From an uncultured Sphingomonadaceae bacterium (GTDB lineage: Bacteria > Pseudomonadota > Alphaproteobacteria > Sphingomonadales > Sphingomonadaceae): a stretch of DNA of 64,000 nt. Where the stretch lies: the NCBI GenBank assembly GCA_937995515.1, contig CALKJZ010000001.1, forward strand, positions 1 to 64,000, read 5' to 3'. The translations under genes were made by a program, and so were the position numbers. Shown here piece after piece: positions 1 through 1,695 of this stretch; within the stretch, counting starts at the first letter, position 1, and the number at the start of each line of letters is the position of its first letter. The notes under the pieces are model-generated. The model had not been told where the DNA came from. It did not search any database and worked only from the letters and a program-made list of their open reading frames with translations.

Positions 1-79
1 CGAGGTAGAGCCCATCGCCGTCGGCATAGCGCCCGGGCTGCCGCAGGCCGGCGATGCCCTTGACGGTGAGTTTACCCAC
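1..79 (-). CDS. Tyrosine-type site-specific integrase, N-terminal fragment (runs off left edge)
   Basis: Only the first 26 codons are inside the window. They read from a GTG at 79 and contain KLTVKGIAGL followed by PGRYADGDGLYL, the signature of the DUF4102 arm-binding domain that opens many tRNA-targeting tyrosine integrases. AAGGA lies 8 nt before the GTG, supporting that start; an in-frame TTG further upstream is possible. The gene is transcribed away from the 3' end of the adjacent tRNA-Ser, the usual arrangement at the edge of an island inserted in a tRNA. The catalytic domain (R-H-R-Y) lies outside the window, so activity cannot be judged. Confidence 0.75.
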   Translation of the reverse strand, partial: MGKLTVKGIAGLRQPGRYADGDGLYL

Positions 80-236
80 ACCCCGGATCCTTGCCCACAA
101 TGTCCCCCACAGTCGGCCGTGGTCATGATGCTACCGGACCGTACGGGCAAGGACAAGAGGGCGTCCAGATTATCCAGAAAATTCAGAGCTTTGTGTTCCG
201 GATGGAACTTTGGGCAACGGGAAGGAACGAGGCCGG
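80..236. other. Region between tRNA-Ser 3' end and integrase; probable attachment (att) junction
   Basis: This stretch separates the integrase start from the encoded CCA end of the tRNA and is visibly less G+C rich than its neighbours, as is common at island junctions. Integrases of this class normally recombine within the tRNA 3' end, so the crossover core is expected to overlap 237 to about 260. The second att copy would lie to the left, outside the window. No coding sequence is recognised here. The att assignment is inferred from context only. Confidence 0.4.
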
Positions 237-328
237 TGGCGGAGTCGGAGGGATTCGAACCCTCGGTACGGGGATTCCCGTACGGCGGTTTAGCAAACCG
301 CTGGTTTCAGCCACTCACCCACGACTCC
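237..328 (-). tRNA. tRNA-Ser, anticodon GCT
   Basis: Read on the minus strand, the 7-bp acceptor stem GGAGTCG/CGACTCC closes a complete class II tRNA. It has a D arm (GGTGAGTGGCTGAAACC), an anticodon loop TTGCTAA (anticodon GCT, reading AGC/AGU), a long serine-type variable arm and a T arm containing GGTTCGAATCC. Discriminator G and CCA are encoded in the DNA (237-240). The gene is intact, so an island inserted at its 3' end has restored it. Confidence 0.95.
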
Positions 329-387: not shown

Positions 388-1695
388 CTAGCGGCCCACC
401 CCGCTGTAGCTGAGCCCATGGCGCGCCATCTCGTCCGGCCGGTAGACATTGCGCAGATCGACGACCACCGGCCGCGCCAGAAGCCGCTTTACCCGCGCAA
501 GATCGAGCGCGCGGAAGGCATCCCACTCGGTGACCAGCACCATCGCATCGGCGCCCTCGAGCGCGGCATAGGGATCGTCGGCATAGTCAACCCCGGCGAG
601 CACCGCGCGCGCCTGTTCCATTCCCTGTGGATCATAAGCCCGGATCCGCGCGCCGGCATCCTGCAGGGTCTGGATGATGGCGATCGCCGGGCTGTCGCGC
701 ATGTCGTCGGTGTTGGGCTTGAATGTCAGGCCGAGCACTGCCACCGTGCGCCCACGGGCATCCCCGCCCATCGCCTGGATCACCTTGCGCCCCATCGCGC
801 GCTTGCGCGTGTCGTTCACGGCAGCCACCGTTTCGACGATCCGCGTCGGCGCATCATGATCCTGCGCCGTCTTGATGAGCGCCAGCGTGTCCTTGGGAAA
901 GCAGCTGCCGCCATAGCCTGGCCCGGCATTCAGGAACTTCGGGCCGATGCGGTTGTCGAGCCCGATGCCGCGGGCTACGTCCTGCACATTCGCCCCCACC
1001 TTCTCGCACAGGTCGGCCATCTCGTTGATGAAGGTGATCTTGGTCGCAAGGAAGGCGTTGGCGGCATATTTCGTCAGCTCGGCCGTGCGCCTGTTCGTGA
1101 CCATGATCGGCGCCTGGTTGAGGTAGAGCGGGCGATAGATCTCTTCCAGGATCTGCCGGGCGCGGCTGTCTTCCACACCGATCAGGATCCGGTCCGGCCG
1201 CTTGAAATCGGAAATGGCTGCACCCTCGCGCAGGAACTCCGGGTTCGAGGCAACGGCCACCTCCGCCTGCGGGTTGGTCTCGCGGATGATGCGCTCCACC
1301 TCGTCTCCCGTTCCGACCGGAACGGTCGACTTTGTGACCACCACCGTGAACCGGCCGGGTGCAAGGTTGGCTGCGATCTCCCGCGCCGCTGCGTAGACAT
1401 GGGAGAGATCGGCATGGCCGTCGCCGCGGCGGGAGGGTGTGCCCACCGCGATGAACACGGCCTCTGCATCCGCCATGCCCGCGGCCAGATCGGCCGTGAA
1501 GCGCAGCCGGCCGGCGCGGACGTTGGCTGCCACCAGCCCATCGAGACCAGGCTCGTAGATGGGCATTTCCCCGGCACAGAGCCGCGCGATCTTGGCCGAA
1601 TCCTTGTCAACGCAGGTCACGTTGTGGCCGAAATCCGCAAAGCAGGCCCCGGATACAAGGCCGACATAGCCCGACCCGATCATCGCGATTCGCAT
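388..1695 (-). CDS. ugd: UDP-glucose 6-dehydrogenase
   Basis: This enzyme oxidises UDP-glucose to UDP-glucuronate with two NAD+, supplying precursors for exopolysaccharide and modified lipids in the cytoplasm. The 435-residue product starts MRIAMIGSGYVGL, a Rossmann NAD fold at the very N-terminus, which fixes the ATG at 1695 rather than upstream in-frame codons. GGSCFPKD near residue 265 carries the catalytic cysteine, and LGLTFKPNTDDMRDSP marks the C-terminal UDP-binding domain. Length is normal for the family. It sits alone between tRNA-Ser and the heme genes, with no other polysaccharide genes nearby. Confidence 0.95.
   Translation of the reverse strand: MRIAMIGSGYVGLVSGACFADFGHNVTCVDKDSAKIARLCAGEMPIYEPGLDGLVAANVRAGRLRFTADLAAGMADAEAVFIAVGTPSRRGDGHADLSHVYAAAREIAANLAPGRFTVVVTKSTVPVGTGDEVERIIRETNPQAEVAVASNPEFLREGAAISDFKRPDRILIGVEDSRARQILEEIYRPLYLNQAPIMVTNRRTAELTKYAANAFLATKITFINEMADLCEKVGANVQDVARGIGLDNRIGPKFLNAGPGYGGSCFPKDTLALIKTAQDHDAPTRIVETVAAVNDTRKRAMGRKVIQAMGGDARGRTVAVLGLTFKPNTDDMRDSPAIAIIQTLQDAGARIRAYDPQGMEQARAVLAGVDYADDPYAALEGADAMVLVTEWDAFRALDLARVKRLLARPVVVDLRNVYRPDEMARHGLSYSGVGR

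Follow-up and report, generated by a model that had tools for sequence, protein, structure and literature searches.

The window analysed in this study is a stretch of 64,000 nucleotides from an uncultured Sphingomonadaceae bacterium (genome G000), and it begins exactly where contig C1 (66,526 bp) begins in an assembly of 2.42 Mb and 31 contigs. At this edge lie the head of an integrase gene, a spacer, a serine tRNA gene and, on the 5' side of the tRNA and outside the island, the chromosomal neighbour ugd (Table 1). For ugd, whose open frame extends over 388-1812, the ATG at 1695 was chosen as the start, and the same tRNA-ugd neighbourhood is also present in the relative G007. An earlier sequence-only reading of this stretch had described an integrase N-terminus pointing away from the 3' end of an intact tRNA-Ser(GCT) with encoded CCA, across a less G+C-rich spacer, and our analysis bears out each part of this description. 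Both ARAGORN and Rfam RF00005 recognise the tRNA, the minus strand from 79 to 1 starts with a GTG codon, translates as VGKLTVKGIAGLRQPGRYADGDGLYL and has no stop before the contig edge, and the spacer part at 112-236 has 56.8% G+C against 71.0% for window positions 329-64000. The integrase frame is also open upstream of the GTG, with a TTG at 100, and the integrase visible at the window edge amounts to 26-33 residues only. A promoter and terminator scan of positions 1-420 found no sigma-70-like promoter and no terminator.

Table 1. Coordinates of the features at the left edge of the window
Feature	Position	Strand	Remarks
Integrase gene, first 26 codons from GTG at 79	1..79	-	cut by contig end
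Third GTGGG	75..79	-	overlaps putative integrase GTG start
Integrase-side att arm between tRNA and integrase, 157 bp	80..236	.	84% identity to C12 copy
GTGGG-N7-GTGGG tandem pair, candidate arm-type sites	94..110 (110-106, 98-94)	-	putative function
tRNA-Ser(GCT), intact, encoded CCA at 239-237	237..328	-	ARAGORN; Rfam RF00005, 58 bits
Predicted attachment core, last 15 nt of tRNA, CCTCCGACTCCGCCA	237..251	-	predicted for this genome
ugd, UDP-glucose dehydrogenase	388..1695	-	Pfam PF03721, PF00984, PF03720

A paralogous junction and the broken contig edge

Positions 1-270 of the window align with C12:72259-72528 of the same assembly at 84% identity over 270 bp (E 2.4e-78), a stretch where a second integrase lies beside tRNA-Ser(CGA) near a contig end. 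The integrase head in the window is probably of the Arm-DNA-bind_3 type, as the C12 paralogue is 85% identical to it over its residues 1-33 and matches PF13356 and PF22022 (Arm-DNA-bind_3 and Phage_int_M); the PF13356 score of 59.5 bits against a cut-off of 27 is that of the paralogue, the window copy having only its 26-33 residues. Judged from the sequences, this match puts the window junction beyond chance, and the junction, its spacer motif and the paralogous junction can all be read directly in the DNA of this genome. The junction is in fact one of several of its kind in the genome and the genus, which the sequence-only reading had missed.

The C12 integrase frame is open for 250 residues, up to the contig end. 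Both C1 and C12 are thus broken within the integrase, and by a PF00589 search the catalytic part of the two enzymes is absent from the assembly; the search gave three matches, on C7, C19 and C17, which belong to separate frames of 345-415 residues. Because C1 starts at window base 1, the remainder of the island is missing from the assembly. An integrase that touches the contig edge could reflect a chimeric contig end, in which the integrase head would be foreign to this tRNA, and other contig ends of G000 do have 141-bp graph-break overlaps, though the C1 end has none. However, the order of tRNA, spacer and integrase recurs with near-equal spacing in named isolates and in the one-contig genome G019, and the identity to C12 continues through the spacer at 84% and not 100%, which makes such an artefact extremely unlikely. 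The exact 141-bp overlaps between G000 contig ends, which include C2/C30, C15/C23, C3/C19 and C7/C10 among others, are typical of a k=141 assembly graph; the first bases of C1 share no such overlap with other contig ends, so that no continuation of the window was found by this route.

A search of G000 with the exact last 15 nt of the tRNA matched the tRNA itself only, and the last 22 nt, with up to three mismatches allowed, had no copy in the 2.42-Mb assembly besides the other three serine tRNA genes. The missing second copy does not refute an insertion at this site, because the relevant DNA is absent from the assembly. An empty-site comparison through G007 was abandoned because gene order is too variable: the genes beyond its tRNA-Ser(GCT) have G000 counterparts on C26, which sit inside that contig behind other core genes and without a copy of the tRNA end. 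In G006, one downstream protein matches the start of C16 at 55%. The downstream flanks of G003 and G001 gave no blastn match at G000 contig ends, and their tblastx matches, among those listed, were discounted as short, of low identity and in G+C-rich sequence.

Integrases at serine tRNA genes in the genus and in relatives

The comparison within the genus covered 17 serine tRNA sites in five genomes (four each in G000, G001 and G003, three in G004 and two in G002), and at six of them an integrase adjoins the tRNA, namely GCT and CGA in G000, GGA and TGA in G001, CGA in G002 and GGA in G004, the last of which is broken. The GCT and CGA sites of G004 have the same head as its GGA site, and their contigs end after it. 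Compared over 133 bp, these three heads are identical at 132 and 133 positions despite the different tRNAs, with the first base past the CCA as the sole difference, suggesting that they may represent one repeated element broken by the assembler. They are located at the ends of C2, C6 and C8 of G004 (L189, L116 and L054). The GCT site of G001 has an element in which an integrase was not detected. The remaining eight sites, including all four in G003, have no integrase beside the tRNA; at one of them, the TGA site of G000, an integrase of another type lies about 4.7 kb from the tRNA. At all eight sites with an integrase or head, less than 2 kb of contig (133-1929 bp) follows the tRNA on its downstream side. 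The same holds for one of the other nine sites (G003 TGA, about 1.3 kb), and the contigs of G000 GGA and G002 TGA end just past 2 kb. This suggests that draft assemblies in the genus tend to break at such islands, and their cargo may therefore be under-counted.

A comparison with relatives that lack the insert, which the sequence-only reading had proposed, is provided by a sample of 18 tRNA-Ser(GCT) loci (L114-L131). An integrase is found at this tRNA in G018, a weak match in G012, and the G004 locus lies at a contig end. At the other 15 loci, tblastn with two integrase queries (E 1e-4) found nothing in the 1.3-10.8 kb downstream that were covered, a search that more distant integrases could escape. 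These loci include the same-genus G003, which contradicts the idea of a catalytically dead integrase fixed at this tRNA in all close relatives. At 13 further loci with an integrase at tRNA-Ser(GCT) (L089-L100 and L105), the 5' side of the tRNA is common between genomes and the DNA past the integrase mostly is not. Pairwise alignment of 12 loci (66 pairs; L095 was excluded as short) gave a median identity of 92.3% for the integrase end against 69.8% for the core 5' flank. In 43 of the 66 pairs the identity of the integrase ends is more than 5 points above that of the core flanks, and in 63 fewer than 300 bases align past the integrase. These loci are not a random sample of genomes because they were picked by integrase similarity; at the level of sequence, the comparison indicates that a common end has recently spread by horizontal transfer while its cargo differed.

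In a quick tree of 57 integrases, several forks of which are poorly supported, the C12 paralogue was placed in lieu of the window copy, which is too short. The paralogue joins the G001 integrase at tRNA-Ser(GGA) (SH-aLRT 98) and then that of G010 at GGA (91). The larger, weakly supported clade around them (84) has 31 rows, of which 24 are at GCT, GGA or CGA serine tRNAs, one is at tRNA-Tyr and six have no tRNA in view; the G001 TGA and G002 CGA integrases form a separate pair. By these comparisons, the element belongs to a sphingomonad family whose integrases evidently use serine tRNA genes of several isoacceptors.

Some integrases at the same kind of site in relatives are damaged. The integrase at tRNA-Ser(GCT) of G018 is broken into split matches with a stop, and that at tRNA-Ser(GGA) of G004 has only its C-terminal part in one frame. 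With only 26-33 integrase residues on view in the window, the integrase end there might likewise be a decayed scar that is no longer mobile and is soon followed by core genes. Against this, no stop interrupts the part of the frame that can be seen, the C12 paralogue reads through all 250 residues available before its contig ends, and the window copy has retained the full spacer motif, so that we regard a mere remnant as doubtful.

Repeats and candidate arm sites at the two ends

The last 15 nt of the tRNA were used as a probe in 14 relatives with a homologous integrase at tRNA-Ser(GCT). Exactly one second copy was found in 10 of them, on the same contig and strand and on the island side, at distances of 9.3-61.5 kb (G019 9.3, G064 13.7, G069 18.0, G068 18.3, G062 18.7, G061 20.8, G063 22.3, G065 25.3, G067 47.4 and G059 61.5 kb). 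The second copy lies on another contig in G060 and G066, and no second 15-nt copy was found in G070 and G023; the reversed pattern, used as a control, gave one match in 15 genomes. Repeats of 22 nt lie at 5.1 kb in G001 and at 38.5 kb in G018. The far-end repeat comprises 15-17 nt of tRNA plus 0-3 nt past the CCA in 12 relatives, and 21 nt of tRNA plus 1 in G018 and G001; a 21-nt probe of the tRNA end with up to two mismatches detected bounding copies in these two only among 19 genomes. Just inside the repeat, 45 nt are alike in 8 of 13 far ends and the outer DNA differs, with the exception of G059 and G067, where it is 83% identical. An exact-repeat scan of the Erythrobacter-type loci found none in 10 kb each, because their far ends lie past the 10 kb scanned. 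The claim that the tRNA 3' end serves as the integration site is therefore supported at the level of the family, since direct repeats bound the islands in relatives.

The spacer of the window contains a tandem GTGGG-N7-GTGGG pair, lying 127 and 139 nt beyond the end of the tRNA. This pair was found by inspection and then counted on the same loci, for which reason the Fisher value of the contrast serves as description only; it is present in 29 of 32 serine-tRNA loci with an integrase or head versus 0 of 21 without an adjacent integrase. The 29 include the GCT and CGA loci of G004, counted for their common head, and once similar flanks are collapsed the pair is present in 13 of 15. It spans 114-140 bp from the CCA, starting at 114-117 or 127-128 nt, always in a 12-bp register. 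The three loci without it are G000 CGA, where the first GTGGG is changed, G002 CGA and G012. These counts cover serine-tRNA loci and not integrases beside a different tRNA or lacking one in view, and they leave out the GCT element of G001, where the pair is present and no integrase was found, and four serine-tRNA loci of another integrase clade, none of which has the pair. In the remaining 63.6 kb of the window the pair does not occur, and contig-end stretches totalling 281 kb contain it twice. At their far ends, 13 of 14 elements have a TGTGG located 69-74 nt inside the repeat, G066 being the exception, and in three of them another TGTGG follows 12 nt further. By analogy with ICEMlSym(R7A), these GTGGG and TGTGG sites are most likely bound by the N-terminal domain of the integrase. 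The pair might instead serve the integrase gene as operator or leader, as nearly every locus has it immediately before the integrase start and, in the available account of the KplE1 prophage, arm sites overlap the integrase promoter (PMC2951348). However, a matching TGTGG at the far ends, 69-74 nt inside the repeat, and the presence of the motif at both ends of the G001 element, which has no detected integrase, render a purely regulatory role unlikely.

A different integrase type in G000 is represented by C17:1-1245 (L007) and C4:84300-84851 (L051), which are 93% identical over 180 residues. Both are at contig ends with no adjacent tRNA, both are preceded by a GTGGG-N7-GTGGG pair in the upstream sequence, and relatives of this type are found in G004 (72%) and G001 (62%).

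From the junction in this genome and from the direct repeats, variable cargo and motifs at both ends that are seen in relatives at the sequence level, positions 1-251 of the window very probably represent the integrase-side end of an integrative element that was site-specifically inserted at the 3' end of tRNA-Ser(GCT). Such an element would bring along its own version of the final 15-22 nt of the tRNA, and its insertion would thereby restore the tRNA gene. The catalytic domain would exchange strands within the common tRNA end, CTCCGCCA together with part of the T arm, while the N-terminal domain would bridge arm sites at both element ends, that is, the 12-bp-spaced GTGGG pair near the integrase and the TGTGG about 71 nt inside the far end. 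In this scheme, we infer both arm-site function and excision.

An element of this design is of an ordinary, known kind. In the available part of the Islander study, 3' tRNA fragments are the usual type, accounting for 3760 of 3919 islands (PMC4383910), and the islands described there share with ours an intact tRNA gene, a tyrosine integrase and a displaced 3' fragment as the bound. Ours differ from them, as far as that account goes, in that the fragment is only 15-22 nt long in relatives and is absent from the present assembly, and in that related integrases use several serine isoacceptor genes. ICEMlSym(R7A) of Mesorhizobium, whose integrase IntS acts on a 283-bp attP with the arm consensus TGKTGGTATC in the portion of the report consulted (PMC11963761), resembles our element in having the integrase gene beside the att site and several arm-type sites, which here are candidates. 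Unlike that system as reported there, the candidate sites here read TGTGGG in a strict 12-bp register and conjugation genes were not seen. The KplE1 prophage, with IntS at argW and an integrase promoter that overlaps the att region, likewise has arm sites close to the tRNA end, as do the candidates here, but it uses a different tRNA and its arm motif is a conserved TAAA, according to the available text (PMC2951348). Our literature search, which covered titles and the beginnings of abstracts, found no description of this serine-tRNA integrase family, no paper joining sphingomonad, tRNA-Ser, integrase and genomic island, and none on integrase-less defence islands. Islands at tRNA genes are one of the main routes of bacterial gene gain. 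The parts that deserve attention here are the use of serine tRNAs across isoacceptors and the two-ended arm pattern, and the recognition pattern of tRNA end, 12-bp arm pair and far-end arm can be used to find and bound islands, including those without an integrase.

Cargo of related islands and an element without a detected integrase

The cargo of related islands was sampled through ten large proteins from eight islands, taken from the first ~10 kb past the integrases. Among them are TonB-dependent receptors, an M16 peptidase, an RND efflux protein, a metal P-type ATPase, a pyruvate carboxylase-like enzyme, an ABC1 kinase-like protein and a TrwC relaxase (L091), and the 9.3-kb island of G019 carries a MarR regulator with an RND efflux pump. 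None of the ten matched a phage structural family at E 1e-8, and one had no family. A scan for defence systems gave partial matches in two of the ten, both from L091, the larger of which is the TrwC relaxase.

This cargo bears on whether the element is a temperate phage at a tRNA gene and not an island. Relatives of the integrase are encoded in 69 of 50,697 phage records, the best listed match being 41% identical in a Caulobacter phage. All 69 records are below 60% identity, however, one scan of viral contigs confirmed no integrase relative, and the sampled cargo includes the RND pump of G019 and no structural family among its ten proteins, so that a phage seems very unlikely and an integrative island remains our preferred reading.

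The same-genus relative G001 has a 5.1-kb element at its tRNA-Ser(GCT) (L114:10065-15190), which is bounded by the 22-nt repeat of the tRNA end and has the arm motif at both ends. It encodes IetA- and IetS-like genes, detected by PADLOC models, and CcdA- and CcdB-like fragments in different frames, and no integrase was found within it. The IetA- and IetS-like genes link this element to the IetAS anti-phage defence system (PADLOC), as cargo of a relative and not of the window. The element may be moved by the integrases at other serine tRNAs of G001. We speculate, tentatively, that the serine tRNA genes could form one shared docking system, in which an integrase family reads the common tRNA end and a 12-bp-spaced arm motif. 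An integrase from one island could then act on elements at every serine tRNA gene, inserting, moving or copying them, and small defence cassettes with both end signals but without an integrase, such as the 5.1-kb IetAS element of G001, would be among these; this broader proposal is possible but not the expected outcome.

Some islands have cargo in common. L098 and L113, which are located at different serine tRNA genes (GCT and GGA), have 4.9 kb of aligned cargo in common. Similarly, 3.5-5.5 kb of aligned cargo is common to L091 and L100, from two Croceicoccus species, and L092, from an unclassified member of Sphingomonadaceae. In L091 this common cargo includes the TrwC relaxase, close to the integrase, suggesting that the islands at L091, L092 and L100 may be mobilizable.
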